DNA from: Hyphomonadaceae bacterium
GTDB taxonomy: Bacteria; Pseudomonadota; Alphaproteobacteria; Caulobacterales; Aquidulcibacteraceae
DNA length: 34,149 nucleotides
Direction: 5' to 3'
Assembly: GCA_016791365.1 (NCBI GenBank)
Contig: JAEUMT010000065.1
Coordinates: forward strand, 1-34,149
A program made the position numbers and the translations under genes. Below the pieces are notes generated by a model. That model did not search any database. It saw only the letters and a program-made list of their open reading frames with translations, and was not told where the DNA came from. Shown piece by piece: positions 2,727 to 20,766 of the stretch; positions within the stretch are counted from its first letter, which is position 1, and each line of letters opens with the position of its first letter.

Positions 2727-3010
2727 GACGCGACGCCTCTGAAATTCGCAGACTTTACAAGCGTCTCGTTCTCCCGCGCCGGTTGCGTTCGGTTAACCAT
2801 GGTTCGGCACTCTGCGCTCCAAAATCACCGCTCCCGCCGGTGACAATGGAGCCGAAAATGACCGCCCATAACCAGCGCGTTAATCAGTCGGAGGCGCAAA
2901 TTCCCGCTGCTGGCGCAATCCGTTGCGATCTGGGCCAGTCGCGCCAAATCCTTTGCCGTTCACTCTTATCATCTGGATTTCCAGGTGTGCCTGACGGCTT
3001 GGGGGAAACC
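2727..3010. other. Leader region upstream of the beta-barrel gene
   Basis: No credible gene. The region holds a perfect 10-base palindrome AACCATGGTT (2795-2804) preceded by TT, giving a TTAACC half-site (2793-2798) of the kind recognised by CtrA in Caulobacterales. A second TTAA of matching spacing is not present. In-frame ATGs at 2846 and 2858 could extend the downstream gene but would bury its signal peptide. I see no confident sigma-70 promoter. Confidence 0.35.
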
Positions 3011-4240
3011 TTGCGTATTAATCCATTCGCTTCGCTCTTTGCGGCGTCGCTCATCATTCTGGCGCCCGTCCACGCGGCTGCTCAGACCCAACAAACCCAA
3101 GGCGCCGCGCGCCAAGAAAGCGTGTCGGTGCGCGACCGCGATCGTCCGGAGTATGATGCTCTGGGCCGTCGTCTCGGCGTGTTCAATCTGAACGCCTCGC
3201 TCGATCTTGCCGTGACCAGCACGGACAATTTGTTCGCCGCGCCGGATGGTGCGCCGAGCGATGTCGACGATATCATTTACGGTGTCACGCCGAATGTGGC
3301 GTTGTCGTCCGATTGGTCGCGCCACGCTGTCGCGTTCGACGCCGGCGCCACCTTCCGCAGCCATGAGGATTTCTCGAGCGAAGACGCCGATACGCACTAT
3401 GTGCGCGCCACCGGCCGCTTCGACATCGGCGAGAACACGGCGATCCGCGGCTCGGCCCGCTCGTCGCACGAAGTTTCGCCGCGCACGGACCCGGACTCAC
3501 CGTTCATCGGCGCGCCGGTTGAGTACGACCGCATGGATACCGGCATCGGCATCTCGCATCGCTTCGCGCGGTTCACCGCGAGCCTCGACGCCACCAGCAG
3601 CGATTACGACTACGACGGCCTGCAGTCGTTCCGCGACAACGAAGAGAGCGCCATCCGCGGCCGCATCGAGGCTGAACTCAGCCCTCGTATCGGCCTTCTG
3701 CTCTCCGCCGTTGTCGATGAACGCGACTACGACAACTCACCGCAATTCAACTCGGACGGCCAAGCCTACATGGTCGGGGTTTCGCTGAACACCGACCTGA
3801 TGCGTGGCGAGGTGCAAGTCGGCCAGTTTGAGCGTGACTACGCCGGCGTCGCCGGCACGTTCGACGGCGTTGCGATCGCCGGCAATGTCGAGTGGTACGC
3901 CACTCAGCTGACGACTGTCACACTGAGCGCGCGCCGCGACGCGGACGATCAGATCGGCGCCTTCTCTGGTGAGCCTTATGTCACTGAGGAATATGGCCTT
4001 CGCGTCGACCACGAACTGCTCCGTAACGTCATCCTGACCGGCGCCGTGCGCTTCGGCAATCGCGACTACGAGACCATCGTCCGTGAGGACGAATACAACG
4101 AGTGGGAATTGGGCGCTGACTACATGCTCAACCGCAACGCCGCCGTGCGCTTCCGCTACGAGCACGACGAAGTTGATTCCCCGGCGTACCGCGATTACGA
4201 GGTCAATCAGGCGACGCTTGGCCTGACGCTGCGTCTGTAA
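3011..4240 (+). CDS. Outer-membrane beta-barrel protein of exopolysaccharide loci (BBP2-like, Wzp-like candidate)
   Basis: About 409 residues from a TTG start at 3011, chosen because it gives a clean signal peptide (Arg2, then a hydrophobic core LFAASLIILAP and an AHAAAQ-like cleavage region, residues 14-25) and has GGGGGAA just upstream. Longer in-frame starts at 2846 or 2858 would put over 50 hydrophilic residues before the signal. The mature part alternates polar and hydrophobic residues in repeated strands. It has many Asp/Tyr/Arg turn residues and ends TLGLTLRL, a typical beta-barrel C-terminus with alternating hydrophobics. It resembles PF10082-type putative beta-barrel proteins found beside exopolysaccharide genes. 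In the absence of a Wza-like translocation pore in this locus (see the OPX protein at 10381), it is a good candidate for the polysaccharide exit porin. Barrel nature is strong, function is inferred. Confidence 0.75.
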   Translation: MRINPFASLFAASLIILAPVHAAAQTQQTQGAARQESVSVRDRDRPEYDALGRRLGVFNLNASLDLAVTSTDNLFAAPDGAPSDVDDIIYGVTPNVALSSDWSRHAVAFDAGATFRSHEDFSSEDADTHYVRATGRFDIGENTAIRGSARSSHEVSPRTDPDSPFIGAPVEYDRMDTGIGISHRFARFTASLDATSSDYDYDGLQSFRDNEESAIRGRIEAELSPRIGLLLSAVVDERDYDNSPQFNSDGQAYMVGVSLNTDLMRGEVQVGQFERDYAGVAGTFDGVAIAGNVEWYATQLTTVTLSARRDADDQIGAFSGEPYVTEEYGLRVDHELLRNVILTGAVRFGNRDYETIVREDEYNEWELGADYMLNRNAAVRFRYEHDEVDSPAYRDYEVNQATLGLTLRL

Positions 4241-4265: not shown

Positions 4266-4712
4266 GTGAGCACGGGCATGCCCGCGGGGGAAGCAAAGTC
4301 TAAACGTCCCAAGGCAGGGACCGCGAAAAAAAGCGCCGCGCGGAAACGCGCGGCGCAGCGCGTTTCGCTGACCGACGCCCTGGCCGAGGCGGCTTGGAGC
4401 GAGGCTGACGCCGCGCTCGCGCAGGCGCTGGCCGATTTCGATGAATCCGAGACCGCTGCCAGCAAAGCGGCCCGCAAGGATGCGCGGGAGCGCCTTGGTC
4501 AATCGCTTTCGCGGGCGGCCCGCAAGCGCGGGCTTTCGCGCACCGGCGAATTGGACGAGCGCGTCACCTTCAATGCCGGTGAGCACGACCTGAACGCGGC
4601 GGTCGCGAAAACGCCGAAGACGGTCCGTATTCAGGCGCGCGGCGTAACGCGGGGAGGTGAGGTCTTGGCCAAGCCGCGCGTCGCGCCGGTGGAGCGCAAG
4701 AAGCGGACATGA
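4266..4712 (+). CDS. GrpE-like small protein paired with an Hsp70-like gene
   Basis: A 148-residue protein with a GTG start at 4266 (an ATG at 4278 is an alternative). Residues 1-32 are Lys/Arg/Ala-rich and disordered-looking. Residues 35-90 form an Ala/Glu/Arg-rich helix likely to be a coiled coil. Residues 95-143 look like a small beta domain (RVTFNAGEHDL ... VRIQARGV ... VLAKPRVAPVE). This helix-plus-beta layout resembles the short GrpE-like nucleotide exchange factors that partner non-canonical Hsp70 proteins. The next gene is such an Hsp70-like ATPase, and the two overlap by four bases (ATGA at 4709-4712), which implies translational coupling. I therefore propose a dedicated cochaperone. 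The similarity is at layout and short-motif level only, so a simple unknown protein remains possible. Confidence 0.5.
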   Translation: MSTGMPAGEAKSKRPKAGTAKKSAARKRAAQRVSLTDALAEAAWSEADAALAQALADFDESETAASKAARKDARERLGQSLSRAARKRGLSRTGELDERVTFNAGEHDLNAAVAKTPKTVRIQARGVTRGGEVLAKPRVAPVERKKRT

Positions 4713-6088
4713 GCGATTGGACGCTCTGTATCGATTTCGGCACGGCCTTTTCAAAGGCCGCCGTCGCGCCCACCGGGGCGTGGACGCATTTTGACCCCGC
4801 CACCATTCGTCCGCTGATGTTGAGCGCCGAGGGTCAAAATACGTTTTTGCTCGATAGCGCGATCTTCGTCGATGAAGACCGGGTGCTGTTCGGCTGTGCG
4901 GCTCTGAATGAAGCCGATGCTCAGGCTGATGCGAAGCGCGCGGCGCTGAGGTCGTTCAAGACGCTTCTGAGCGTCAGCGATCTTGAGCGCGCGCTGAACA
5001 CAAATGCGCCGGCGACCATTGATCCGCACCGCATCTTTCAGATGCGGGATCTGATCGTGCTGTATCTGGCGTACCTGCTGGCGACGATTGACCGGGCGCT
5101 GCTGGCGGATCCGGTCTTGGCGCAAGGCGGCGTCTTGCGTCGCCGTTATGCCGCGCCGGCGTGGCGCAGCGGCGATAGCGCCGGGATGCACAATGTCGTG
5201 GTGCGCCTGTTCGCCGAAGCCGAGGCGTTTCGCGCCAGCGTTGGCAAGCGGTTACTATCGCCGGATGGGCTGTCGCTGCGGACAATCAGCGATGCGTTGC
5301 CGAAGGCAATGGCGAACGCCGAAGCGCTTGAGATGGGGCTGGTGTTCGAGGCGACGGCCGCCGCCGCCTACACGTCTGCCGGGCTTGAAGGCTCAGGCTC
5401 GCATCTGATCGTTGTCGATATGGGCGCGGGCACCACGGATATCGCGGCGCTTGCCCGGATCGGCGCGCGCACGCTTGAGCTCCCGGAAGCGCGCGTGACG
5501 CTGAAACAGGCGGGCGACTTCCTCGACCGCGTCATCGCCAATCGTGTGCTTGAGAGCGCCAGATGGGCCAGGCGCGCGGATGAGCGCGCTGAGTTGTGGT
5601 CGGTGCTGATGCGGCAGATGGCGGACATCAAGGAAGCGATCATGGCCGACGGCCGCGCGACGTTGCGCAATCAAGGGCGCAGCATCGCGCTCTCATTGCG
5701 TGACGTCGAGAAGGACGAGGACTTTCGGGAGTTTCAGAAAAGTCTGCAGCAGGCCTACGATCACGCTCTGGCGATCGTCCGTGACGACGCGCGTGCCCGC
5801 GGGCGCTCCGAGGTGCAGGCGATCGCGGTCGGAGGCGGCGCGTCGACGCCGCTCATTCAAGATCTCATTCGCCGAAAAATGGAGTCCACGCGCCCGCGGG
5901 TCGTCCCGCGTCCGGCCACGCCGGATTGGGCGCATGCGCGTGAGTTCAGAGGCAATTTGGCGCCGGTCTTTCCACAACTCGCGATCGCGATTGGTGGGGC
6001 GCTGGCGCCTGACAGCATGCTGGCGGCGCGCGGCGGGATTACTCCCCCCGCAAACGACCAAAGCGATATTCCGGTGGGACGCGATTGA
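4709..6088 (+). CDS. Hsp70-family (actin-like ATPase fold) protein without substrate-binding domain
   Basis: A 459-residue protein with the Hsp70/actin ATPase signatures in order: phosphate-1 loop IDFGTAFSKA (8-17), connect region EATAAAAY (214-221), phosphate-2 loop VVDMGAGTTDIA (235-246) and adenosine motif VGGGAST (374-380). DnaK is about 640 residues with a beta-sandwich substrate domain and helical lid. Here the protein stops shortly after the ATPase domain, so the standard peptide-binding module is missing. It is translationally coupled to the upstream GrpE-like gene and lies between a beta-barrel gene and polysaccharide kinases. A role in assembling or regulating the export machinery is plausible but inferred. 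Its last 50 bases overlap the 3' end of the convergent gene on the other strand. No signal peptide, so cytoplasmic. Confidence 0.8.
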   Translation: MSDWTLCIDFGTAFSKAAVAPTGAWTHFDPATIRPLMLSAEGQNTFLLDSAIFVDEDRVLFGCAALNEADAQADAKRAALRSFKTLLSVSDLERALNTNAPATIDPHRIFQMRDLIVLYLAYLLATIDRALLADPVLAQGGVLRRRYAAPAWRSGDSAGMHNVVVRLFAEAEAFRASVGKRLLSPDGLSLRTISDALPKAMANAEALEMGLVFEATAAAAYTSAGLEGSGSHLIVVDMGAGTTDIAALARIGARTLELPEARVTLKQAGDFLDRVIANRVLESARWARRADERAELWSVLMRQMADIKEAIMADGRATLRNQGRSIALSLRDVEKDEDFREFQKSLQQAYDHALAIVRDDARARGRSEVQAIAVGGGASTPLIQDLIRRKMESTRPRVVPRPATPDWAHAREFRGNLAPVFPQLAIAIGGALAPDSMLAARGGITPPANDQSDIPVGRD

Positions 6089-7073
6089 CGTAAACCGCCG
6101 TCTCGGCGCGCGGCCGGCGTTGCAGTACGCCCATGGCGCGGCGCACGGCGGTGATGGGCGTACGGTCCCAGGCGGTCACCAGCACGCAGCGATCAGCCGC
6201 GGCGGCGATGGCCGCGCCTTCGGCGCCGACAAGCAGGGGCGGGCAGTCGAGCACGATCAGTTCGTAGTGCTGGCGCAGGCGCAGGATCAGTTCCTTGAAG
6301 CCTTGCGGCGGCACGTCGCGCCAGGCGTTGCGATGTCGCGACGCGGGAATGAAGTGCAGGCCGATTTCATCTTCCTCGCCGACGAAGTTTTGCCATTGGC
6401 TCGGTTCTTCGCAGGCGTCGGCGAGGCCTTCGTCCGGATCGAAGCCAAGCGTGCGTGTCAGCGAGCGGCGGCGTAGGTCGCAATCAATGACGACAACGCT
6501 GCGGCCCTGCTGAGAGGCGGCGATAGCCGTGCAAAGCGCCGTGGTCGTCGCGCCCTCGTTGGGGATGGCGCCGGCGAAGGCGACGACGCCGTCGGTTGAG
6601 ATCGCGCTCTGGAGGTCGCGAAAGGCGGTGGCGAACGCGGACGAGGGCTGGAAGGCGAGGCAATCGAGCGGCGTGCGCTTGTCCGGCGGGAGCTGGCGCA
6701 GCGCTCGCGGCGTAAGCTCCGGCGCGGCGCCCAGAATGGCGTAGCCGCGTGTCTTGCCGAAACTGGAAAGCGACGTGACGGTGTTGCGGCTGAGCTCGCG
6801 AACGAATGTGACAACCAGGCCGGCGGCGATGCCGAGGGGCGCCCAGAAGACTAGCGCGCTAAGGATCGGCACCTGCCCGCTGAGATCGTAGCCGACTCCA
6901 GCGCCAGTCACGATGAAACTGATGATCAAAAACAGCGGCCACTGGCGCTGAAATCCGCGGCGCAGACGTCCGAGCGCGAGCGACTTTGACGGCGGCCTGC
7001 GCGAACGCAGCGTCGCTGTCCGCGTACCCGGTTCTTGATACCGGGAACGGTCGCCTGTCAGCGGTGACGTCAA
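6039..7073 (-). CDS. CpsD/CapB-like polysaccharide kinase homologue with degenerate P-loop
   Basis: A 344-residue protein related to bacterial tyrosine kinases of capsule systems. It has a basic N-terminus, two hydrophobic segments (about 46-62 and 68-90) and then an ATPase-like domain. The Walker A segment is AGAIPNEGATTT (167-178): Ala175 replaces the invariant Lys. Walker A' VVVIDCD (193-199) and Walker B LIVLDCPP (272-279) are kept. There is no C-terminal tyrosine cluster. It may therefore be catalytically weak or a regulatory pseudo-kinase for the full kinase at 8117-10213, as in split Wzc or HfsA/HfsB-type pairs. The start is a TTG at 7073 supported by GAGGAG seven bases upstream. The gene is divergent from the sugar transferase and convergent with the Hsp70-like gene, overlapping it by 50 bases. 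Confidence 0.8.
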   Translation of the reverse strand: MTSPLTGDRSRYQEPGTRTATLRSRRPPSKSLALGRLRRGFQRQWPLFLIISFIVTGAGVGYDLSGQVPILSALVFWAPLGIAAGLVVTFVRELSRNTVTSLSSFGKTRGYAILGAAPELTPRALRQLPPDKRTPLDCLAFQPSSAFATAFRDLQSAISTDGVVAFAGAIPNEGATTTALCTAIAASQQGRSVVVIDCDLRRRSLTRTLGFDPDEGLADACEEPSQWQNFVGEEDEIGLHFIPASRHRNAWRDVPPQGFKELILRLRQHYELIVLDCPPLLVGAEGAAIAAAADRCVLVTAWDRTPITAVRRAMGVLQRRPRAETAVYVNRVPPEYRFGRLRGE

Positions 7074-7131
7074 TCAGCACTCCTCGCGGGTCTCCGCCCA
7101 ACGCAGCGCGGTCAAAACCCGTTCCCCTCAG

Positions 7132-7205
7132 CTATCCACAGCCTATAGCCAAAACTCGGGCGAATTCGAGGGCAATTGTTAGTCGCGGCGGCGAAGTTAT
7201 CCACA
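7132..7205. promoter_or_regulatory. Two DnaA-box-like sites in a divergent promoter region
   Basis: TTATCCACA at 7197-7205 is a perfect match to the consensus DnaA box. CTATCCACA at 7132-7140, same orientation, differs at one base. The sites are 65 bases apart in the 283-base region between the divergent starts of the pseudo-kinase (7073) and the sugar transferase (7357). A single GANTC methylation site (GATTC) lies at 7255-7259. In Caulobacterales DnaA also works as a transcription factor and CcrM methylates GANTC, so cell-cycle control of these genes is possible. I see no strong sigma-70 hexamers. There are no other origin features such as repeated boxes with an AT-rich unwinding element, so a replication origin is unlikely. 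Confidence 0.45.
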
Positions 7206-7356
7206 ATGCGGTTGGGCGGGCCCGTCTTTTCGCTGGCAACGCGCGACCGGTGGCGATTCCAACTAAACGGGGAAAAATAACCAAGAGCGCGCGTAGGGGA
7301 GTTGCAGTTTCTCGCGGGAGGCTCTTAATCCGGGGAGCGACTAGTCAGGAAAAACC

Positions 7357-8115
7357 ATGCTCATCCAGTTGCCCAGCGGGTCGTCGGACCAGCCGGGTCC
7401 GCAGAATGCGGAAGACACGACGACAACCTTCGAAGCGGGACTTCGCCGCGATCTCGCGAGTTCTCCGATCGTCTCGTACGACTCGATGTTGGGCGGTTGG
7501 ACGAAGCGCGCGATTGAACTCACGCTGACAATTCTGACGGCGCCGGTCTGGGCGCCTTTGATGCTGGTTTCCGCCGGCGTTGCGAAGGTGCGCAACGGCG
7601 CCTCGGCGTTCGTTTCGCAAGAGCGCATCGGCTATGGCGGGCGCGCCTTCAATTGCTATTCGCTTCAAATCTCGCGCCCGTCGCGCGAAGGCGCCGCGGA
7701 TGAAGCGCCCGTCGCGAATGATGCGAGTGGAAAGGCGGCGCGTCGCGGAAAATGGCGTCGCGCATTTGAGCGCTTGCCGCAGCTCTTGAACGTTATCCGC
7801 GGCGAGATGGCTTTGGTTGGGCCTGCGCCGCTCGCTCGCGGGCAGCTTGAGCCAATGCGGTCCGCGCGCCGCTATTATCTGAGCGCGCGCCCCGGCGTCA
7901 TCGATACCAGCACCATCATTGGCGGCAGCGATGATCCCAGCCAGTACAAGATTTATGCGATGTCGTGGGCGCTCACGACGGACGTGCTGATTTTCTGGGA
8001 CGCGCTGCGCTCATTGTTCGATCGCAGCGAAGATCTTTGGAAGCCAAGCTTCAAGCGCGCCGAGCCTGGTCAGAGCACCAGCGGAATCGTCGTCCGCCGG
8101 CGCTCAAACCAGTAA
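7357..8115 (+). CDS. Sugar-transferase-like protein (PHPT fold) with altered active site
   Basis: A 252-residue relative of bacterial sugar transferases (PF02397), which attach the first sugar-phosphate to undecaprenyl phosphate. The fold marks are a basic-hydrophobic membrane segment (KR at 50-51 followed by about 20 hydrophobic residues), QERIGYGGRAF (88-98), LPQLLNVIRGEMALVGP (140-156) and RPGV (178-181). Key catalytic parts are changed. The Asp-Glu pair just before LPQL is Glu138-Arg139, the KFRTM block reads YSLQIS, VGPRP reads VGPAP, and the RPGITG block is not kept. The enzyme may be inactive or specialised. The ATG at 7357 has AGGA about six bases upstream. The gene ends one base before the converging Wzc-like gene on the other strand. 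Family placement is good, activity is doubtful. Confidence 0.75.
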   Translation: MLIQLPSGSSDQPGPQNAEDTTTTFEAGLRRDLASSPIVSYDSMLGGWTKRAIELTLTILTAPVWAPLMLVSAGVAKVRNGASAFVSQERIGYGGRAFNCYSLQISRPSREGAADEAPVANDASGKAARRGKWRRAFERLPQLLNVIRGEMALVGPAPLARGQLEPMRSARRYYLSARPGVIDTSTIIGGSDDPSQYKIYAMSWALTTDVLIFWDALRSLFDRSEDLWKPSFKRAEPGQSTSGIVVRRRSNQ

Positions 8116-8116
8116 C

Positions 8117-10213
8117 TTACGAAATGCTGTAATAGGACTTCGACTCGTTGAAATAGAGTGAGTCCGTGTACGATTGCCAACGCGGCAGGACGTAGTTCAG
8201 CGCAATGCCCAGGATGTTGCCGCCGGCGGCTTCGGTTTGCGCCACGGCCGCGCGCATGGCGCCGATGTGTGTTCGCCCGGCGCGCGCGATCAAAACGGTT
8301 GTATCGGCGCGGCCGACAACGATGCGGGTTTCCGCAACAGCCAGGATCGGCGCGCAATCCAGGATCACGAGGTCGTAGTGGGCGCGCAGATCCTCGATCA
8401 GCGTGCCCATGGCGTCTGAGCCGAAAACGTCGCGCGGGGTGAAGCCCGAGGCCGCGATCGGCAGGACGTGCGCTTCCGAATTCGGGTCGCGTACGATGGC
8501 CGAGCGCCACGGCGCCTCGCCGGCAAGCACCTGCAGAATGCCGACATCGGTTTCGATGTCGATGACGTCGTTGATCGATTGCTTGCGCAGATCGCAATCG
8601 ACGACGCAGACCTTTTGACCCGACATCGCGGCGACGCGCGCGAGGCACATCGAGATTGTGGTCTTGCCTTCGTCAGGGAGCGCCGATGTGACCGCGACGA
8701 CCTTGGAAGAGAGATCGAGCTTTGAATAGACGATCACCGTGCGCAGGACGCGCAGCGATTCCGTGAACGCGGACATCGGGCGCCCGACAAGATAGCCCGA
8801 CGGATGACGTTCGGCCGGCGGCATCTGGCGCATCATGCGCTTCGAGATCGTCGGGATCGAGGAGATCGCCGGCACGCCCACCTTCGCTTCGAGATCGTCG
8901 GCGTTCTTCACTGATTGGTCGAACAGCTCGGCAATGAGGCCGGCGATGACGCCGACCAGCAATCCGGCCGCCAACATCATCAGCAGCGCAAAGCGCAGTT
9001 GAGGGGATGACGGTTGGCCCGGGAGCGCGGCCCCCGACAACAGGCGCGCAGTCGGCGCGCTCAGCTGTGACTGATCGGCTGAGTTCTGGTAGCGCTGCAG
9101 GAAGGTTTCATAGAGCGCGCGCGCCTCGCGCGCTTGTTCTTCAAGATCGCGGGCGCGTTGTTGCGCGGAGGCATTGTTAGCGGCGGGCGTCGCCGCCGGC
9201 GCGCTGGCGCGGCGGGCCTGTTGCAGCGCCTGGACGCGCGAACGGGCGCGCGACACGTCGCCTTCCATATTGCCTTGGATGCGTTGCACTTCCCGCTGAA
9301 TTTGCGAGTCCAGATCGCGGCGTTCCTGCTGAACGGCTTGCACGGCCGGGTGTGTCGGCAGGTAGCGGTTTTCGAGATCTTGCTGGCGGCGGTTAATGTC
9401 GGCTTCGCGCTCGCGCAGCGAGTTGATCGCGGCGGAATTGGCGACATTCGCCACCGCATCAATCGACGCGCCGGAAGAGCGCAGATCCGTGAACTGACGC
9501 AGGCGCGCTTCGCGCTCGGCAAGTTCGCCCTGTGCGGCGGCCAGCTGGCCCGCGATGTTCTCGCCTTGCGGCTCAACGGCGGCCGGATCGTCCGGCGAGG
9601 CGATGCCCGCTTCGAGGCGATAGGCGTTAAGAGCGTCCTCTTTGGTTTGAACGTCTTCGCGGAGTTCAGCCAAGCGGCGCGACAGCCACGAGTTCTCACT
9701 CATGGCGTCGCTGGCGCTCATGTTGAGTTGGCTGGCGAGGTAAACGTCGGCGTAGGTGTTGGCGATCAGCTGAGCGCGCTGCGCCGTCGAGGAGCGCGCT
9801 TGGATTTCGATGATGCCCGTCGCCTGCGGCTCAACCGTGATGGCGCGCGCCAAATCTTCGGTGAGGCCGGGCGTCTCGCGGCCGTTTTGCATGCCGAGGG
9901 CCGAAGCCAATTCGCCCATCAGCGCCGGTGAGCGCAGCAGCGCGACTTCAGCGTCGATGGGTGAAATTTGTTGTGCGCCGGCTGTGACCGCGGGCTGGTT
10001 CATCATCAGCATCGCGGTCGCGGTATAGGTCCGCGGCTGCAGCATGATGATCGCAAACGTCAGCACGGCGGCGACCGTCGCGCTGATCGTGATGAGCCAC
10101 ATCCGACGGCGGAACATGTTCTTCGCCGCCGTGAGGCCGATCATGTCGGCGAGGCCGCGCGGCGCTTCCTTACGCGTCGGATCTACGGCCGGCTCTTTAT
10201 TGACCATGTTCAT
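8117..10213 (-). CDS. Wzc-type polysaccharide co-polymerase / tyrosine autokinase
   Basis: About 698 residues from the ATG at 10213 (a TTG at 10255 would add 14 residues; neither has a strong ribosome site). Order: Wzz-like N-terminal domain with membrane helix 1 (about 38-58), a long periplasmic coiled-coil region (about 180-380), membrane helix 2 (about 407-428), then a complete BY-kinase domain. The kinase domain has Walker A SALPDEGKTT (510-519), Walker A' VCVVDCD (535-541), Walker B LVILDCAP (615-622) and a C-terminal tyrosine cluster (Tyr674, 682, 687, 694, 695). In the family this inner-membrane protein controls chain length and export by cycles of Tyr autophosphorylation and oligomerisation. 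It lies downstream of the Wza-like gene on the same strand, the common wza-wzc order. It is the intact counterpart of the degenerate kinase at 6039. Confidence 0.92.
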   Translation of the reverse strand: MNMVNKEPAVDPTRKEAPRGLADMIGLTAAKNMFRRRMWLITISATVAAVLTFAIIMLQPRTYTATAMLMMNQPAVTAGAQQISPIDAEVALLRSPALMGELASALGMQNGRETPGLTEDLARAITVEPQATGIIEIQARSSTAQRAQLIANTYADVYLASQLNMSASDAMSENSWLSRRLAELREDVQTKEDALNAYRLEAGIASPDDPAAVEPQGENIAGQLAAAQGELAEREARLRQFTDLRSSGASIDAVANVANSAAINSLREREADINRRQQDLENRYLPTHPAVQAVQQERRDLDSQIQREVQRIQGNMEGDVSRARSRVQALQQARRASAPAATPAANNASAQQRARDLEEQAREARALYETFLQRYQNSADQSQLSAPTARLLSGAALPGQPSSPQLRFALLMMLAAGLLVGVIAGLIAELFDQSVKNADDLEAKVGVPAISSIPTISKRMMRQMPPAERHPSGYLVGRPMSAFTESLRVLRTVIVYSKLDLSSKVVAVTSALPDEGKTTISMCLARVAAMSGQKVCVVDCDLRKQSINDVIDIETDVGILQVLAGEAPWRSAIVRDPNSEAHVLPIAASGFTPRDVFGSDAMGTLIEDLRAHYDLVILDCAPILAVAETRIVVGRADTTVLIARAGRTHIGAMRAAVAQTEAAGGNILGIALNYVLPRWQSYTDSLYFNESKSYYSIS

Positions 10214-10380
10214 ATGGTTCACGCGCAGCCCACTTCTTGGCGCCCGAGTTTGCAACGGAAGACGGCACTAAGCTTAGCATCGTGGCAAAGCCAATGTCGT
10301 CCTCAGCGTGAGGCCATGCATGCTTCGCGCCGCGAGAACGTGTTGAAAAAGGCGCGCTGCGTTCGCGCCGGCGTTCAGCT

Positions 10381-10959
10381 TTAGAACAGGCGTTCGCCGA
10401 TCCGCACGGTGTCGCCAGGCAGAACCGGGGTGGCGACCGTGAGCGGGTAGGCGCGCTCCACGCTCTCATTCGCGTGACGGATGAAAACCCGGGACTGGTT
10501 CGCGCGATAGGTGAATCCGCCTGCCGTTGCGACAGCGTTCGGAACGGTCAAGCTGGCCGAGTAGGGGTAGGTGCCGGGACGGGTCACTTCACCCAGGATG
10601 AAGAACGGCCGGTAGTTGGTGACTTCGACCGCCACGCTGGGGCTGCGAACATAGGTGCTGAGCGCGGTTTGTAGCGCCGTCGTGAATTCCGCGACGGTAA
10701 GGCCGCCCGCGCGGATCGTGCCGACGAGCGGGTAGGCGATGTTGCCTTGCGCACCAACCGTGAACGGGCCGGTGAGGTCCGGTTCGTTGAAAACCGTAAT
10801 GCGAATCTGGTCGCCGGCGCCGAGCTTGTACTCGACGGGTTCGATCATCTCTTGGGTCGACGGCGCCATGGTGGCGCAAGCGCCAAGCGCGCCCGCGCCG
10901 GCAGTCAAAACAAAGCTACGCAGGAAGCCCCGCCGGGTGTGCCAGATTGGCGATGTCAT
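10381..10959 (-). CDS. Short polysaccharide export lipoprotein (OPX, Wza/GumB-like)
   Basis: A 192-residue lipoprotein, start ATG at 10959 with GAGGA eight to nine bases upstream. The N-terminus has a twin-arginine-like motif (TRRGFLR, 8-14), a hydrophobic stretch and a lipobox ending at Cys28 (ALGAC). The polysaccharide-export domain follows (YKLGAGDQIRITVF, PLVGTIRAGGLT), then a single SLBB-like segment (FFILGEVTRPGTYPY, GGFTYRA). The protein ends right after LPGDTVRIGERLF. Wza is about 380 residues and spans the outer membrane with a C-terminal helix; this protein has none. It therefore belongs with the short OPX proteins that cannot form the outer-membrane pore alone and are thought to work with a beta-barrel partner. 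The gene precedes the Wzc-like kinase on the same strand, separated by about 170 bases. Confidence 0.88.
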   Translation of the reverse strand: MTSPIWHTRRGFLRSFVLTAGAGALGACATMAPSTQEMIEPVEYKLGAGDQIRITVFNEPDLTGPFTVGAQGNIAYPLVGTIRAGGLTVAEFTTALQTALSTYVRSPSVAVEVTNYRPFFILGEVTRPGTYPYSASLTVPNAVATAGGFTYRANQSRVFIRHANESVERAYPLTVATPVLPGDTVRIGERLF

Positions 10960-11181
10960 GAAACTCAGTCCTCGCCGCGTTCCTACGCTATCGGCATTTG
11001 GAAGCAAAGGCGGGGCCAACGTTCACCCCACAACCGCGACAATTTTCCCGCGTTCGCCGGCATGGTTAGCAATGCTCGAATTGTACGAAATCGGCGTGCG
11101 CGATTAAGGCTGCTTTGCACCCTGAGAGCGCAAAACGGGAACTCTGTTGCGGGCGCTAAGACCCGGTGATGTGATCCCCGC

Positions 11182-12380: not shown

Positions 12381-13517
12381 TTGAAAATCTCCGTCCTCAA
12401 GGAAACAGCGCCTGGGGAGACCCGGGTCGCCGCCACGCCGGAGACAGTCAAGAAGATCGTGGGGCTCGGCCACACGGTGACGGTAGAGACCGGCGCCGGG
12501 GCGAGCGCGAGTTTCCCCGATGAACAATTCAAAGCCGCTGGCGCCGAGATACTCGCTGACGGCGGCATCGGCGCGGCTGACCTCGTCGTCAAAGTGCGCC
12601 GCCCGTCCGATGCGGAGATCGGGAAGATCAAGGTGGGGTCTGGCTTCGTGTCGTTGCTGGAGCCTTACGGCGATAAGGCGACGATCGATGCCTTGGCAAA
12701 AGCAAAAGTTGATGCGCTGGCGATGGAGTTCATTCCACGCATCAGCCGCGCGCAATCGATGGACGCGCTGAGTTCGCAAGCGAACCTGGCGGGCTATCGC
12801 GCGGTGATCGAGGCGTCGGCGCTGTTTGGGCGCGCGTTTCCAATGATGATGACGGCCGCCGGCACGATCGCCGCCGCCAAGGTTTTCATCATGGGCGTTG
12901 GCGTTGCGGGCCTGCAAGCCATTGCGACGGCGCGCCGCTTGGGCGCTGTTGTGAGCGCCACGGATGTCCGGCCGGCCACGAAAGAACAGGTCGCTTCACT
13001 TGGCGGCAAGTTCGTTGCCGTGGAAGACGAAGAGTTCAAGCAAGCGGAGACGACTGCCGGCTACGCCAAGCCGATGAGCGCTGAGTATCAAGCCAAGCAG
13101 GCGGCGCTCGTGACAGAGCACATCGCCAAGCAGGATATCGTCATCACCACGGCGCTGATCCCTGGCCGTGCGGCGCCGGTGCTGGTGACCGAAGCGCAAG
13201 CCAGGTCGATGCGCCCGGGCTCGGTGATTATCGACCTTGCGGTTGCGCAGGGCGGCAATTGTCCGCTCTCGAAGCCGGATCAATTGGTCGACGCGAACGG
13301 CGTGAAGATCATGGGCTTCACCAACCTGCCCGCGCGCCTCGCTTCGGATTCCTCTTCGCTCTACGCCAAGAACTTTCTCGCGCTGCTGCCGCTGCTGACC
13401 GACAAGGGCAGCAAGGCCTTCGCGCCCGCCTGGGATGACGAAATCATCAAGGGCGCTATGTTGAGTAAGGGCGGTGCGCTTGTGCATCCGCACTTTGCTC
13501 CGAAGACCGCCGCATGA
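12381..13517 (+). CDS. pntAA: NAD(P) transhydrogenase subunit alpha part 1 (NAD-binding domain I)
   Basis: A 378-residue soluble NAD(H)-binding component of the proton-translocating transhydrogenase, which makes NADPH from NADH using the proton gradient. The N-terminus KISVLKETAPGETRVAATP matches alanine dehydrogenase/PntA from the first residue, so the TTG at 12381 is the likely start despite a weak ribosome site; its place three bases after the preceding stop suggests coupling. The Rossmann motif MGVGVAGLQA is present in the middle, and the RQD-type loop and the DLAVAQGGNCPLS segment follow later. The length fits the split alphaproteobacterial form in which alpha is two genes. It overlaps the next gene by four bases (ATGA). 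Confidence 0.93.
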   Translation: MKISVLKETAPGETRVAATPETVKKIVGLGHTVTVETGAGASASFPDEQFKAAGAEILADGGIGAADLVVKVRRPSDAEIGKIKVGSGFVSLLEPYGDKATIDALAKAKVDALAMEFIPRISRAQSMDALSSQANLAGYRAVIEASALFGRAFPMMMTAAGTIAAAKVFIMGVGVAGLQAIATARRLGAVVSATDVRPATKEQVASLGGKFVAVEDEEFKQAETTAGYAKPMSAEYQAKQAALVTEHIAKQDIVITTALIPGRAAPVLVTEAQARSMRPGSVIIDLAVAQGGNCPLSKPDQLVDANGVKIMGFTNLPARLASDSSSLYAKNFLALLPLLTDKGSKAFAPAWDDEIIKGAMLSKGGALVHPHFAPKTAA

Positions 13518-13864
13518 ACGACGTCGAATTCGCCAAGCGCTATTACGAAGCATGGAACAAGCGCGATCTTGACGCGATTTGCGCGCTCTATGCCGATGAT
13601 ATCGAGTTTTCGTCGCCTTATATCGCCGCGCTCGGTTTTTCTCCGGACGGCGTGATCCACGGCAAGGATTTACTGCGTCTCTATTTCGAGAAGGCGCTTG
13701 AGCGCGCGCCGCAACTCACGTTCACACCGGAAGATTTGCTCGTCGGCGCGCGTGGGCACACATTAGTTTATCGCAACCATCGCGGTGAACGCGCTGCTGA
13801 AACTCACGAAACGGATGGCGTTGGCCTCGTCATCCGCGCGGACGCGACCTACAGTACCGAGTAA
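13514..13864 (+). CDS. NTF2-like (SnoaL-type) domain protein
   Basis: A 116-residue small protein. The pattern FAKRYYEAWNKRDLDAICAL followed by YADDIEF is typical of the NTF2-like/SnoaL superfamily, whose cone-shaped fold serves as a small-molecule pocket in enzymes or as a binding domain. The start ATG overlaps the pntAA stop (ATGA, 13514-13517), so it is expressed with the transhydrogenase. No signal peptide or membrane segment. The C-terminus (DGVGLVIRADATYSTE) looks complete. Specific function unknown. Such genes are not part of the enzyme complex in known systems, so its place between pntAA and pntAB is odd. Confidence 0.7.
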   Translation: MNDVEFAKRYYEAWNKRDLDAICALYADDIEFSSPYIAALGFSPDGVIHGKDLLRLYFEKALERAPQLTFTPEDLLVGARGHTLVYRNHRGERAAETHETDGVGLVIRADATYSTE

Positions 13865-13883
13865 AGGTATGAAGGAGACGCGC

Positions 13884-14228
13884 ATGGCCGGTTTTGCCCG
13901 CAACATGGTGGTCGCGGCGTTCGCCGCCGCAATGTTGTCTGTCGCGCCAGCGCAAGCGCAGAGCGGAAGCTCCGCGCAGGACCTCAGCTATTGTGCGGGG
14001 GCGATCGCCGCGCACGGCAATCTCGATGTCTTGACGTATCCTCAAGGCGCGACCGGCGAGTGGGCGCCGGCGCTGGGGCGCATCCTCGAGGCGCTCAACC
14101 GCGAAGAGGGCGTTGAGGGCATGACCGGGCGTTACGCCGCCAGTGCGGCGAAGGGCTATTGGCTGGAGCAACCGGCCCGTGCGCGCGCCGCGGCCGCGAA
14201 TGAGTGTCGCGCTCGTTTCGGCGGCTAA
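13884..14228 (+). CDS. Small secreted protein of unknown function
   Basis: A 114-residue predicted exported protein. The start at 13884 is chosen because GGAG lies six bases upstream and the protein then begins with a signal peptide: MAGFARNMVV, hydrophobic VVAAFAAAMLSV and an APAQAQS cleavage site near residue 25. An in-frame ATG at 13869 is an alternative. The mature part is about 90 residues with two cysteines (DLSYCAGAI and ANECRARFG) that could form a disulfide in the periplasm. I do not recognise the family. The stop codon overlaps the stop of the opposite-strand gene at 14225 (shared CTAA). Confidence 0.65.
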   Translation: MAGFARNMVVAAFAAAMLSVAPAQAQSGSSAQDLSYCAGAIAAHGNLDVLTYPQGATGEWAPALGRILEALNREEGVEGMTGRYAASAAKGYWLEQPARARAAAANECRARFGG

Positions 14229-14752
14229 CGAAAGCGTGCATGTAACGCGCTCAGCTGCGCGTGTCCGTCTTCGAGTGTGACGTCAGCCATCTGCGGCTTG
14301 ATTGTTAGTTCGGGGGCGTTTGCGTCATGCGGCCGCACGAGGATTTGGCGCACGAGATGGTCGCGGCGTCCGATGCGCCTGGTGCGTTCAATCTCGATCG
14401 TATCGATGTCCTGCCAGGCGATAGCTCGGATCGGTTTGAACATGCGCACCTGTAGTCCGTAGCGGTCAGCGCGCAGGATCGGTGCGCGATCGAACAGCAG
14501 GCGAACATAGGTAAGAACTCCGCTCATGACCGCCAGCGTCAGCGCGCCCAAAACCAGCGTCGCGAGAGCGCCGAGGGAAAAGAGGTAGGCCTGCGACGTG
14601 CCGACCGGCGCACTGGCGATTTCCGCCGCCGCGAGCCAGGCGCCTAGTGCGAGAAACGGCAGGGCGACGAGCACTAGCAACGATAGCCATTGCAATGCCC
14701 ATCCGGGCGATGCGCGCCACTCAATCACTCCCTCCGTTTCGTTTCCGGTCAT
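14225..14752 (-). CDS. Two-helix membrane protein with PH-like cytoplasmic domain
   Basis: A 175-residue protein with start ATG at 14752 supported by AGGA about nine bases upstream. The longer open frame running to 14938 would cover the start of pntAB and is not needed. Two hydrophobic helices (about 20-43 and 52-80) are followed by a beta-rich domain: RYGLQVRMFKPIRAIAWQD, IDTIEIERTRR, LVRQILVRP. This layout, with a W-x-D-I-x-x-I-E pattern, is like bacterial PH-type membrane proteins (YdbT/STM3941-like). It lies antisense between pntAA and pntAB and breaks the transhydrogenase operon. Its 3' end meets the small secreted gene's stop. Function unknown. Confidence 0.6.
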   Translation of the reverse strand: MTGNETEGVIEWRASPGWALQWLSLLVLVALPFLALGAWLAAAEIASAPVGTSQAYLFSLGALATLVLGALTLAVMSGVLTYVRLLFDRAPILRADRYGLQVRMFKPIRAIAWQDIDTIEIERTRRIGRRDHLVRQILVRPHDANAPELTIKPQMADVTLEDGHAQLSALHARFR

Positions 14753-14839
14753 GACGCGTTCCTGGCGACGACTATAGGTTGACCCGGCGCAAAATCCGCC
14801 TCTTAGTCCCTCGCGACGAGTCCGTATCCGAGGGGCCAC

Positions 14840-15148
14840 ATGGAAGCGGTTGATCCGTTCGTATTCTATCTCGCCATCTTCGTGCTGGCGATTTTCGTAG
14901 GCTATTACGTTGTGTGGTCCGTCACCCCGGCGCTCCATACGCCGCTCATGGCCGTCACCAACGCCATCTCATCCGTGATCATCGTCGGTGCGCTCATCGC
15001 CGCCGGCGCGAGCGCGATGACGGATGGCGGCTGGATCGCCAAGGGCGCGGGCGGCCTGGCGGCGGGCCTCGCGGCGGTGAACATCTTCGGCGGCTTCCTT
15101 GTGACCCAGCGCATGCTGGCGATGTACAAGAAGAAAGAGAAGAAGTGA
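14840..15148 (+). CDS. pntAB: NAD(P) transhydrogenase subunit alpha part 2 (membrane domain)
   Basis: A 102-residue hydrophobic protein with about four segments: FVFYLAIFVLAIFVGYYVVW, a helix after TPLMAVTNAISSVIIVGAL, the glycine/alanine-rich AGGLAAGLAAVNIFGGF and the Lys-rich end MYKKKEKK. The sequence HTPLMAVTNAISSVIIVGAL is a strong signature of the PntAB membrane part, which with PntB forms the proton channel. It has its own weak candidate promoter (TTGACC at 14779-14784 with an 18-base spacer to TTAGTC), which would be needed because the opposite-strand gene separates it from pntAA. A long palindromic element follows its stop codon. Confidence 0.92.
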   Translation: MEAVDPFVFYLAIFVLAIFVGYYVVWSVTPALHTPLMAVTNAISSVIIVGALIAAGASAMTDGGWIAKGAGGLAAGLAAVNIFGGFLVTQRMLAMYKKKEKK

Positions 15149-15160
15149 CGTGCGCGGCAG

Positions 15161-15289
15161 TTCTCGCCCTCTCCCTTGCGGAGAGGGTCGCCGCGAAGCG
15201 GCGGGGTGAGGGGCGTTCAACCGCCCCGGCGCCTGATCGCTTGAACGCCCCTCATCCCCCAACCCCTTCTCCGCAAGGGAGAAGGGGAG
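15161..15289. repeat. Composite intergenic palindrome (REP/BIME-like)
   Basis: A nested palindrome between pntAB and the next gene. The inner arms GAGGGGCGTTCAA (15208-15220) and TTGAACGCCCCTC (15241-15253) match over 13 bases. Each outer arm is itself a hairpin: CCTCTCC...GGAGAGG (about 15169-15187) and CCTTCTCC...GGGAGAAGG (15265-15285). A mini-hairpin CGCCGC-GAA-GCGGCG lies at 15189-15203. Similar composite elements are scattered between genes in many alphaproteobacteria. Possible effects are mRNA end protection, attenuation of downstream expression or a mobile REP-type origin. Confidence 0.85.
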
Positions 15290-15301
15290 TCGGACGGCGC
15301 C

Positions 15302-15928
15302 ATGTCGCCGAGTGATTGGCGCGCACTGATCGAAGCTTACCTCGACGGGCGTCTCTCCGCCGAGGCGTTCATGCGCCGCTTTGTCGATGGCTGGCGTGCT
15401 GGCGGCGCCGCCGCGCCGCGCGCGATCGCGGCGATGCAGGCGACAGTCGAGGCGTTTGAAGCGGAAGTGCTTGAAGCGGGCGAAGAGGGCGAGGTCAGCG
15501 ACGATGAATTGCGCCAAGCCGCGCAACGCGCGCTCGCCAATCTGAGTGAAGAGCCGACAGTCACCCCGCACACTTTCGACCGCACGCGCGCCCGCGAGGA
15601 TATGCGCCGGTTTCAAATCCAGATGCGCGGTTGCGCGGGGCTTGGTTGCCTGATCGCGCTGGCGTGGGTGGGGCTTTGCTTCCTGCAAGTGTTCGTCGTT
15701 ATCGAATGGGTGCAGCGGAGCTTTGATTGGCCGGCGCTGCCTTCCACCATAGTGGGCGCCGTGCTCGCTTTCGTGCCGATTGTCGGCAACGTGCTCGCCT
15801 TTCTGGGGGCGACTGAAATTTGGAGCTGGCCGGCGTGGCTTGCGGCTCTCGTCTTCTTCGCCGCGCCTGCGGTGACCATTTTCTCCGGCTGGTCGCGCTA
15901 TCGCCAGTTCGGGCCACCTAGGGGCTGA
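15302..15928 (+). CDS. Membrane protein of unknown function between pntAB and pntB
   Basis: A 208-residue protein with an acidic, helical N-terminal half (DWRALIEAYLDGRLSAEAFM, then many Glu/Ala residues to about 100) and three hydrophobic helices at about 113-137, 148-170 and 175-195. It ends in a short basic tail. The N-terminal pattern LIEAYLDGRLSAEAFxRRF resembles the beginning of small colicin-immunity-like proteins, but similarity is too short to assign a function. The start ATG is 12 bases after the palindromic element, whose arm supplies a GGGGAG that could act as a weak ribosome site. The stop is one base before pntB, implying co-transcription with it. This is not a known transhydrogenase subunit. 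Confidence 0.65.
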   Translation: MSPSDWRALIEAYLDGRLSAEAFMRRFVDGWRAGGAAAPRAIAAMQATVEAFEAEVLEAGEEGEVSDDELRQAAQRALANLSEEPTVTPHTFDRTRAREDMRRFQIQMRGCAGLGCLIALAWVGLCFLQVFVVIEWVQRSFDWPALPSTIVGAVLAFVPIVGNVLAFLGATEIWSWPAWLAALVFFAAPAVTIFSGWSRYRQFGPPRG

Positions 15929-15929
15929 C

Positions 15930-17354
15930 ATGAACGCTGATCTTGCGGCATTGCTGTATCTCGTCTCCGGCGTGCTTTTCATTTTGGCGCTGCGCGGATT
16001 GTCGAGCCCGGAGACGAGCCGTCAGGGCAACAATTTCGGCATGTTCGGGATGGCGATCGCCATCGTGACGACGTTGTGGCTGATTGGTCCTGACACCACG
16101 ACCTGGATCGTCATTGTCGGGGCGATCGCGATCGGCGGCGGCATCGGCGCGTATATCGCGCGTTCGATCAAGATGACGGCGATGCCGCAGCTTGTGGCCG
16201 CGTTTCACTCGCTCGTCGGTTTGGCGGCGGTCGCGGTTGCAGCGGCGGCGTTTTATGCGCCGGAGAGTTTCCACATCGCCGAGCCCGGCGTCGGCGCGTA
16301 CCTCGTGCGTACGCCGATCCACATGCAGTCGCTGATCGAGCTTTCGCTCGGCACCGCGATTGGCGCCATTACGTTCACAGGCTCAGTGATCGCGTTCGCG
16401 AAGCTGAACGGCAATATGTCGGGCGCGCCGATCATGCTGCCGGCGCGTCACGCGATCAATATCGGCATCGCGGCGCTGATCGGTTTGCTGATCGTGATGA
16501 TGGCGCAGTCGCACGGCACTGTTGAGTGGCATTTCTGGGCGATTGCCGGGCTTTCGTTCCTGATCGGCGTGCTGCTGATCATCCCGATCGGCGGCGCCGA
16601 CATGCCGGTCGTCGTCTCGATGCTGAATTCGTACTCAGGATGGGCGGCCGCGGCGCTTGGCTTCACGCTTGAGAATGTCGCGCTGATCATCACCGGCGCG
16701 CTTGTTGGTTCGTCCGGCGCGATCCTCAGCTACATCATGTGCAAAGCGATGAACCGCAGCTTCATCAGCGTCATCCTTGGCGGCTTCGGCACGGCCGATG
16801 GCGGCGCGGGCGCAGGTCAAGTTGAAACGCGGCCGGTGAAGCAGGGCAGCGCCGACGATGCGGCTTTCATCATGAAGAACGCCAGCAAGGTGATCATCGT
16901 GCCGGGGTACGGCATGGCCGTTGCGCAGGCGCAGCACAGCGTGCGCGAATTGGCTGACATGTTGAAGAAGGAAGGCGTCGAGGTGAAGTACGCCATCCAC
17001 CCCGTCGCCGGTCGTATGCCGGGGCACATGAACGTGCTGCTCGCCGAAGCGAACGTGCCCTATGATGAAGTGTTCGAGCTTGAGGACATCAATAGCGAGT
17101 TCAGCCAAGCCGATGTCGCTTACGTCATCGGCGCCAACGACGTGACCAACCCAAGCGCGAAGACCGATCCGAAAAGCCCGATCTACGGCATGCCCATTCT
17201 GGACGTGGAGAAGGCCAAGACCGTGCTCTTCATCAAGCGCGGCATGGGCTCAGGCTATGCGGGCGTCGAGAACGAGCTCTTCTTCCGTGACAACACGATG
17301 ATGCTCTTTGGCGACGCAAAGAAGATGACGGATGAGATCTTGAAGGGGCTTTGA
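15930..17354 (+). CDS. pntB: NAD(P) transhydrogenase subunit beta
   Basis: A 474-residue Re/Si-specific transhydrogenase subunit. The N-terminal about 270 residues hold many membrane helices that form the proton path. The C-terminal domain III binds NADP(H), seen as the VPGYGMAVAQAQ loop, GRMPGHMNVLLAEA and the GANDVTNPSAKTDPKSPIYG block. Length and motif order match intact PntB. With PntAA and PntAB it completes a three-gene enzyme, although two unrelated genes, a PH-like gene on the other strand, a palindrome and a membrane protein gene lie between the subunits. The N-terminal MNADLAALLYLVSG fits the family start. Confidence 0.95.
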   Translation: MNADLAALLYLVSGVLFILALRGLSSPETSRQGNNFGMFGMAIAIVTTLWLIGPDTTTWIVIVGAIAIGGGIGAYIARSIKMTAMPQLVAAFHSLVGLAAVAVAAAAFYAPESFHIAEPGVGAYLVRTPIHMQSLIELSLGTAIGAITFTGSVIAFAKLNGNMSGAPIMLPARHAINIGIAALIGLLIVMMAQSHGTVEWHFWAIAGLSFLIGVLLIIPIGGADMPVVVSMLNSYSGWAAAALGFTLENVALIITGALVGSSGAILSYIMCKAMNRSFISVILGGFGTADGGAGAGQVETRPVKQGSADDAAFIMKNASKVIIVPGYGMAVAQAQHSVRELADMLKKEGVEVKYAIHPVAGRMPGHMNVLLAEANVPYDEVFELEDINSEFSQADVAYVIGANDVTNPSAKTDPKSPIYGMPILDVEKAKTVLFIKRGMGSGYAGVENELFFRDNTMMLFGDAKKMTDEILKGL

Positions 17355-18545: not shown

Positions 18546-20606
18546 CTACCAAATCGTGACGCGATCCGCCGGCGGCAGGTAAAGCGCCGCATCCGGCTGC
18601 ACGTTAAATGCCTCGTACCAGGTGTCCATGTTGTGCACGACGCCGTTGACGCGGAATTGCGGCGGCGAATGCGGGTTGGTCATCACCATGTTGCGCAGCG
18701 CTTCCTCGCGATATTTCGAACGCCACGCCTGCGCCCAGCCAAGGAAAAAGCGTTGTTTGCCGGTGAGGCCGGCGCGCACTGGCGCTTCGCGTGCGCCAAG
18801 TGAAAGCTCATAGGCGCGCAGCGCGACTTGCAATCCGCCATTGTCGCCAATGTTCTCGCCGAGCGTGAGGCGCCCGTTCACGTTCAGGCCGGGCAGCGCT
18901 TCAAAGCCGTCATACTGCGCGGCCAGGCGTCCGGTGACTTCCGAGAATGCGGCGACGTCCTGCGGGCTCCACCAATCGCGCAGTATGCCTTGGGCGTCGG
19001 ATTTCGCGCCCTGGTCATCGAAGCCGTGGCCCATTTCGTGGCCGATGACGCCGCCAATGGCGCCGTAATTCACGGCGGCGTCGGCGTTTGGGTCGAAGAA
19101 CGGCGGTTGCAAGATCGCGGCGGGGAAGGTGATGACGTTGAGTACGGAATTGTACGACGCATTCACGGTTTGCGGGGTCATATTCCATTCGCCGCGATCG
19201 ACGGGACGCCAGAGGCGCGCCGTGGCCCAATCGCCGTTGAATTTGTTGGCTCGCTTGAAATTGCCGTAAGCGTCATCAGCGCTGGCCTCGAGCCCGGTGA
19301 AGTCGCGCCAGCGGTCCGGGTAGCCGATGCGCGGCACGAAGGCCGCGAGTTTTTGTTGCGCGACGACTTTGGTTTCAGCTGTCATCCACGGTGATTGATC
19401 GATGCGCTGGGCGTAGGCGCGGCGCAGGTTCTCGACCAGTTCAAGCATTTGCGCCTTGGCTTGCGGCGGGAAGTGGCGCTGCACATAGAGCTGGCCGACC
19501 GCTTCGCCCATCACGTTGTCGATGGTGTCGACCGCACGCTTCCAGCGTTCTTGTTGCTCCGGCTGGCCGTTCAGCGTTCGACCGTAAAAATCGAAGTTCG
19601 CGTCGTCGATCGCGCTCGGCAGCACATCGGCGCTGCCGCTGATGAGATTGTAGGTGAGATAGTCGCGCCAGGTCGCGACGGGTGTTGCGAGGAAGAGTTG
19701 CGCGAGCGGGGCCATGGCGCTGAGTTCACGCACGACGACTTCCGTCGCTTGCCCCATGCCCGCGGCTTCAAGCCCCGCGTCCCACGGGAAGTTTGGCGCA
19801 ATGGCGCGCAACTCGGCGCGGGTTTTGAGATTGTAGGTGCGGTCACGCTGGCGGCGATCGGCGACCGGCCAATGGAGTTCCGCGATCTGCGTCTCAAGCG
19901 CCATGATCGCGCGTGCTTTAGCGGCGCCGTTCGCTTGTCCGCCAAGCGTCAAGACGCGTTCAATATAGGCGACATACGCGGCGCGATTGGCTTCGCCATC
20001 GGCGCGCCGGTAGTATTCGCGCTCTGGCAAACCAAGCCCTGCGTGCGTAAAGCTGACGATGTAACGCTGCGGGTTGCGCGCATCGAGGCCGGCGAAGGCG
20101 ACGATCGGCCCATTGGTCGGGATGTCGTTGCGCGCCATCAGACGGATGACGTCTTCGTGCGTTTGCAGAGCGGCGATGCTCGCGAGGTCCGGCTGTAGCG
20201 GCGCGAGGCCGCGAGCGTTGATTGCGTCAGTGTTGAGATATGCGTTGTAGCTCGCGGCGATCTTCTGCTGGACCGAACCCGGCGCGCCGCCGGCGAGCGC
20301 GACTTCTTCGATAATGGCGCGCTGATCGCGGCTGGCCTTCTCGCCGAGAATGACAAACGTGCCCCAGCTGCGTTGATCGCTCGGGATGTCGGTCGTGTCG
20401 AGCCAGCGGTCGTTGGCATAGCGGAAGAAATCATCGCCGGGGCGCACGCTCGTGTCGCCCGCGGTGAGATCCAGGCCGAACTCGCCGATGGCGGCACTGC
20501 CGCTGCTGCTTGCGCCGCTGCTGCTGTCGCCGCCGGAATTGGTCGCGCAACCTGCCGCGAGCGCGAGTGTGGAAACGCCGAAGGCGCGGCGGCTGAAGTT
20601 CAACAT
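18546..20606 (-). CDS. M13-family zinc metallopeptidase lipoprotein (neprilysin-like), copy 1
   Basis: A 686-residue M13 endopeptidase. The ATG at 20606 has GGAGGG about six bases upstream; a longer open frame to 20657 adds an unlikely basic leader. The N-terminus carries SRRAF, a hydrophobic core and a lipobox at Cys20 (ALAAGC), followed by a Ser/Gly linker. The zinc site is HEMGH (523-527) with the third ligand Glu in ENIGDNGG about 60 residues later, and the family segments VNASYNSVLNVITFPAAIL and GAIGGVIGHEMGHGFDD are present. It should act as a periplasmic or membrane-anchored peptidase. It is a tandem paralogue of the gene at 20767 but separated from it by an intrinsic terminator, so probably transcribed independently. 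Confidence 0.92.
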   Translation of the reverse strand: MLNFSRRAFGVSTLALAAGCATNSGGDSSSGASSSGSAAIGEFGLDLTAGDTSVRPGDDFFRYANDRWLDTTDIPSDQRSWGTFVILGEKASRDQRAIIEEVALAGGAPGSVQQKIAASYNAYLNTDAINARGLAPLQPDLASIAALQTHEDVIRLMARNDIPTNGPIVAFAGLDARNPQRYIVSFTHAGLGLPEREYYRRADGEANRAAYVAYIERVLTLGGQANGAAKARAIMALETQIAELHWPVADRRQRDRTYNLKTRAELRAIAPNFPWDAGLEAAGMGQATEVVVRELSAMAPLAQLFLATPVATWRDYLTYNLISGSADVLPSAIDDANFDFYGRTLNGQPEQQERWKRAVDTIDNVMGEAVGQLYVQRHFPPQAKAQMLELVENLRRAYAQRIDQSPWMTAETKVVAQQKLAAFVPRIGYPDRWRDFTGLEASADDAYGNFKRANKFNGDWATARLWRPVDRGEWNMTPQTVNASYNSVLNVITFPAAILQPPFFDPNADAAVNYGAIGGVIGHEMGHGFDDQGAKSDAQGILRDWWSPQDVAAFSEVTGRLAAQYDGFEALPGLNVNGRLTLGENIGDNGGLQVALRAYELSLGAREAPVRAGLTGKQRFFLGWAQAWRSKYREEALRNMVMTNPHSPPQFRVNGVVHNMDTWYEAFNVQPDAALYLPPADRVTIW

Positions 20607-20741: not shown

Positions 20742-20766
20742 CGATCAGATCAGCTCTGTCGTGCGC

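Follow-up and report, generated by a model that had tools for sequence, protein, structure and literature searches.

We analysed contig JAEUMT010000065.1 of a Hyphomonadaceae bacterium, numbered C51 among the 65 contigs of a 3.46 Mb genome, and the whole of its 34,149 nucleotides is hereafter called the window. The element under study is a pair of overlapping genes, the first of which (4266-4712, + strand) encodes a small protein of 148 residues related to GrpE by Foldseek and hhalign comparisons, while the second (4709-6088, + strand) encodes an Hsp70-type ATPase domain of 459 residues without a substrate-binding domain. The order of the genes across the locus is a BBP2_2 barrel gene, the small gene, the Hsp70-like gene, a convergent gene for a kinase-like ATPase, and the genes for a sugar transferase, Wzc, a short OPX protein and a phosphatase. 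An earlier note, made from the sequence of the window, had placed the pair inside a polysaccharide locus, and Pfam agrees with this placement, with barrel PF10082, a sugar transferase, a Wzc-like co-polymerase and an OPX protein recognised nearby. The parts are of known kinds in a new assembly, a coupled and conserved GrpE-like/Hsp70-type pair in a polysaccharide export locus.

The two frames overlap by four bases, as originally described, with a GTG start for the small gene, an ATG start for the large one and bases 4709-4712 in common. Conservation was followed in a synteny sample of 29 loci, namely the window itself and 28 others that carry a close copy (group A), of which 13 were related loci and 15 came from whole genomes, each genome used once. 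The four-base overlap recurs in at least 18 of these 29 loci (the window and 17 others), the start of the Hsp70-like gene having been placed by tblastn, which is less exact in the remaining loci. Comparison with three relatives returned ratios of non-synonymous to synonymous substitution rates (dN/dS) of 0.14-0.18 for the small gene and 0.06-0.14 for the large gene, and both genes look real because these values are well under 1. Residue M5 of the small protein (ATG 4278) is invariant in 14 of 14 aligned rows; therefore, the true start of the small gene is likely to be this ATG rather than GTG 4266.

The structural model of the small protein showed a mean predicted local distance difference test (pLDDT) score of 79, with 78 of 148 residues at 90 or above and block means of 86-95 across residues 41-140. 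A basic, low-confidence N-terminus (residues 1-32, with pLDDT below 50 at 7-32) is followed by predicted helices at 35-63 and 67-87 and by a beta domain at 90-141, in accordance with the helix-plus-beta architecture first proposed; the long N-terminal dimerisation helix of GrpE is absent from the model. Foldseek searches with this model returned GrpE at all ranks from 1 to 10 (E 5.9e-5 to 0.17), the rank after having an E value of 1.8. In hhalign, the comparison with GrpE (28 sequences) gave an E value of 8.8e-6 and a score of 41.1 (E 1e-5 with the 14-row alignment alone), and residues 70-140 were aligned to GrpE over its C-terminal helix and beta domain, such that the FDPxxH region falls in register. 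As controls, 100 GrpE alignments in altered order (99 shuffled and one reversed) gave a highest score of 20.3, and 36 other families from the fetched loci a highest score of 25.4. The small protein remained unnamed above cut-off in Pfam and NCBIfam, and Pfam listed GrpE (PF01025) for only 1 of 27 members, with an E value of 0.18. The earlier note had made its reading depend on a relation with GrpE, and this held, both in the ten best Foldseek matches and in an hhalign score above all controls, identifying the small protein by profile and predicted fold as a remote GrpE relative. A separate full GrpE and DnaK are encoded on contig C49 of the same genome, and the pair in the window is therefore additional to these.

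The large protein scored above the Pfam HSP70 cut-off (22.1 versus 20.6 bits) and aligned with DnaK through the ATPase domain. Residues D9, T12, K84, E214, D237, T242 and D244 are present in 14/14 orthologues and 8/8 further copies, and the equivalent of K70 of DnaK is invariant. The protein extends 25 residues beyond the position of DnaK residue 383, leaving no room for a substrate-binding domain, and a hydrophobic linker of the DVLLLDV type was not found in these 25 C-terminal residues. The original description of an Hsp70-family ATPase with its ATP motifs and no substrate-binding domain is thus consistent with both the catalytic residues and the DnaK alignment. Among solved structures, the best match of the large-protein profile was BiP (1.5e-6), and 49 of 50 among the Foldseek matches listed for its model were named Hsp70 or Hsp110. 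Judged from its sequence, the large protein is best described as an ATPase domain of Hsp70 type in which the catalytic residues are conserved.

Upstream of the pair, a BBP2_2-type outer-membrane beta-barrel protein (PF10082, E 5.5e-76) is encoded at 2783-4240 (+), with a possible alternative start at 2987, and its gene ends 25 bases 5' of the small gene. On the other side, the Hsp70-like gene is convergent with the gene of a stand-alone ATPase resembling bacterial tyrosine (BY) kinases (6039-7073, -; TIGR03018, 1.3e-21). Further along are encoded a sugar-phosphate transferase (7357-8115, +; PF02397, E 1.3e-21), a Wzc-like polysaccharide co-polymerase (8117-10255, -; TIGR01005, 4.8e-66) whose kinase P-loop (EGKTT) is intact and whose tail contains Tyr, and a short OPX protein of 212 residues with Poly_export and SLBB domains (10381-11019, -; Pfam E 6.8e-24 and 5.4e-11, respectively). 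NAD(P) transhydrogenase genes (12381-17354, +) adjoin the polysaccharide locus, and elsewhere in the window two M13 family peptidase genes in tandem (18546-22833, -) are followed by an RND efflux set (22861-29048).

Within the synteny sample, the small gene occurs in all 29 loci, the barrel gene lies upstream on the same strand in 26 and the convergent kinase-like gene, coding for two transmembrane segments, is found in 27, so that the recurrence of the pair beside barrel or kinase genes, which the earlier note had named as the support to look for, was observed. The barrel match is missing in L043, L072 and L073; the L043 stretch is also without a kinase-like match, which its genome (G049) carries on another contig, the L078 stretch stops inside the ATPase gene and the kinase-like gene of L076 is in two pieces. 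Loci of three other genera (L053, L056 and L061) retain the pair and, upstream of it, the kinase-like gene, but no barrel or OPX match was found beside it, which qualifies its tie to the export locus. Across genera, it is the kinase-like gene rather than the barrel that accompanies the pair most constantly.

The two are also inherited together. The small gene was detected in 32 of 60 genomes of the family, and a kinase-like match of stand-alone length (in an open frame no longer than 450 residues, frame lengths being read by hand) accompanies it in each of these 32 and was not found in the remaining 28, whose kinase-like matches all fall in frames of at least 730 residues or are absent at E<=1e-8. 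The kinase-like match of G053 is split into two parts of about 230 residues each, and that of G049 and of G044 lies on a different contig from the small gene. The ATPase alone is distributed more broadly, in 39/60 genomes. A second short kinase-like match was noted in one genome away from the pair (G052:C1:797610-798173; 41% over query positions 135-314, in a frame of 320 residues).

Compared with BY-kinases, the product of 6039-7073 matched VpsO (3.9e-16) and Wzc (5.4e-11). It has two hydrophobic segments at the N-terminus and an alanine (residue 175) at the position of the Walker A lysine. This lysine is lost in 29/29 readable stand-alone copies, including those of the three other genera (alanine in 28, threonine in one); row 30 of the lysine table, with the lysine present, comes from full-length Wzc in L076, a locus with a broken stand-alone gene. 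Full-length Wzc retains the lysine in 21/21 loci read, the nine alanine-bearing Wzc rows of the table being matches to the stand-alone gene. In the relatives of the kinase-like gene that were read, most of the Walker A' and B-like motifs are retained. On these grounds, the gene looks like a BY pseudokinase gene with a probably inactive product, and its partner co-polymerase would not be kinase-less, as the Wzc at 8117-10255 retains its own kinase domain. In the open-licence literature searched, we found neither a GrpE-like/Hsp70 pair described within an export locus nor a link between such a pair and a BY pseudokinase.

GrpE opens the ATPase domain of Hsp70, which leads to ADP release. We propose that the two genes, coupled in translation, encode a dedicated unit for nucleotide exchange, in which the GrpE-like protein, pared down to a helix pair and a beta domain, would bind and reset the Hsp70-type ATPase. 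Since the latter lacks a substrate-binding domain, it would not be a client folder in the usual manner, and it may instead serve as a conformational switch between ATP and ADP states. The likeliest target would be the cytoplasmic face of the export machine, that is the adjacent two-transmembrane BY pseudokinase and then the Wzc-like co-polymerase. By driving or licensing the binding and unbinding, and hence assembly and disassembly, of this complex, the switch could control or power export via the route formed by the short OPX protein and the barrel. That the pair acts as an ATP-driven switch on the pseudokinase or co-polymerase of the exporter is the explanation we favour, and we hold it tentatively, at a little under an even chance. 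A stronger form, in which the Hsp70/GrpE-type engine replaces or supplements the tyrosine phosphorylation cycle in co-polymerase assembly and disassembly, appears rather unlikely; there, energy would enter via the chaperone-derived switch and not by autophosphorylation, because the P-loop of the kinase-like protein itself would be dead.

Three observations limit the case for the proposed switch. The surveyed loci are not independent, as 28 of the 29 belong to one genus and the remaining one is from G029; the co-occurrence of the small gene with the kinase-like gene spans only about five lineages; and L055 has a divergent pair (7148-9300) outside any export locus, with neither barrel nor kinase-like gene. 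The GrpE-like protein of this locus has 261 residues with an extra N-terminal part and was recognised by the small-gene profile with an E value of 6.1e-11, the locus being outside the training set of the profile. Of the original reading, a mini-chaperone or ATP switch built into an export locus, the pair, the GrpE relation and the neighbourhood stand, while the link to the locus proved narrower across genera.

If the proposal is correct, the pair would represent an unusual Hsp70 system, a switch with its reset factor lacking a client-binding domain, and an unrecognised means of powering or controlling polymer export in some Caulobacter-related bacteria. In the view given in PMC12004946, tyrosine kinases control the passage of polysaccharide co-polymerases from one oligomeric state to another in a cycle, and what drives them where the kinase is dead, as in EcpK and HfsB, is the question addressed here. 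The pair is a concrete candidate for this driver, as a dedicated Hsp70-type ATPase with a putative exchange factor, co-inherited with a dead-looking kinase.

Alternatively, the pair might be a regulatory Hsp70 system acting on expression or signalling in polysaccharide production instead of on the export machine, as StkA and SglK do in Myxococcus xanthus, where StkA is a negative factor that lowers exopolysaccharide and SglK a positive one whose mutant makes none (PMC4319316). The paralogues of the ATPase lend this some weight. The second ATPase of the same genome (contig C8; L045 7008-8375), 34% identical, has an EnvZ-like two-component system on one side and a QueE-like gene on the other; the gene before it is response-regulator-like by eye, the EnvZ-like histidine kinase was checked by profile in this genome only, and no GrpE-like gene was found within the 16 kb examined around it. 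A paralogue of 32-36% identity occurs near two-component cluster genes in eight fetched loci, this genome included. However, the pair in the window sits among exporter genes and tracks a membrane pseudokinase rather than a regulator, and StkA (540 residues) is longer than the ATPase, which makes regulation an unlikely account.

Other paralogues lie in second polysaccharide loci, with OPX, barrel or Wzc matches, in 6 of 24 further loci (L046, L047, L048, L050, L059 and L082), and in L050 there is one on each side. In a tree of 51 rows, one side of a branch (99/96) consists of the group A copies; the second-locus copies are not grouped in this way. A gene of cluster c47, of about 160-210 residues and without a family (L082 copy checked), was seen downstream in L046, L050 (twice) and L082. 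The ATPase copies of L079 (G040; 6153-7153) and L062 (G045; 7334-8624) are in two tblastn pieces, due to decay or assembly errors.

A relation to anti-phage defence was suggested by PADLOC, in that the ATPase matches the B component of the candidate system PDC-M61 across 430 residues (E 1.3e-52) and 9 of 27 small-protein members match the A component at E<=1, with 3.1e-7 as the best value; the polysaccharide locus would then be merely the site of a defence module. The L055 pair, outside an export locus, has an ATPase matching PDC-M61B at 3.5e-65, and its small protein showed no PADLOC match. Against this, the small protein of the window spans just positions 410-480 of the PDC-M61A model, which is 482 positions long (E 0.0025), and genus-wide synteny with a single small-gene copy per genome is unlike a mobile defence island. 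Moreover, the plasmid and phage collections contained no relative at E<=1e-5, and PDC-M61 is itself only a candidate, whose name was not found in the literature searched. Since the B match is strong and that to the C-terminus of A is weak, the pair looks like a member of a wider GrpE-like/Hsp70 module that has here been incorporated into an export locus. A defence role is improbable.

An actin-like filament, with the ATPase polymerising like MreB or MamK and placing the exporter in the cell, would account for MamK as the best NCBIfam match (28 bits) and for MreB, which outscores HSP70 for the ATPase copies of L056 and L061 and is tied in VIA-align. The invariant K70 equivalent and the Foldseek matches speak for Hsp70, no GrpE-like partner is known for actin-like proteins, and MreB is not known to have a K70 equivalent, so that a filament has little probability. 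A dedicated chaperone holding the barrel or another export protein before secretion is likewise improbable, as the substrate-binding domain is absent and the triad persists without a barrel match in three other genera, even though the barrel gene precedes the pair in 26/29 loci.

The proposed switch can be set beside several known systems. It resembles the GrpE-DnaK exchange pair (1dkg, 4ani, 8gb3) in the helix pair and beta domain of the small partner and in an Hsp70 ATPase domain whose catalytic residues are conserved; it differs in lacking the long N-terminal dimerisation helix, according to the model, and the substrate-binding domain. The earlier note had considered such a pair foreign to descriptions of export; Hsp70 proteins controlling exopolysaccharide were already known in Myxococcus, and the idea is therefore less foreign than assumed. 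A GrpE-like protein, GrpS, presumably adjoins SglK in that organism. StkA differs from the ATPase of the window in that it sits with stkB and stkC and not in an export locus. In PDC-M61, the B profile covers nearly the whole ATPase and the C-terminus of the A profile matches the small protein; the difference lies in the length of A (482 positions versus 148 residues) and in the export context of the window.

Short OPX proteins operate with separate barrels (PMC9601211 and PMC9603273), and the composite translocon of EpsX and EpsY shares with the window a short OPX protein and an outer-membrane barrel in one locus; the main text of PMC9601211 makes no mention of Hsp70 or chaperones. Polysaccharide synthesis requires the pseudokinases EcpK and HfsB, which have been proposed to guide co-polymerase cycles by binding and unbinding (PMC12004946, whose main text does not mention Hsp70, chaperone or DnaK). 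They resemble the kinase-like protein of the window as co-polymerase partners without catalytic residues. They differ from it in that the loss seen here concerns the Walker A lysine, most A' and B-like motifs being retained in the relatives read, and in that the protein of the window bears two hydrophobic segments and shares its locus with a Wzc that has an intact kinase.
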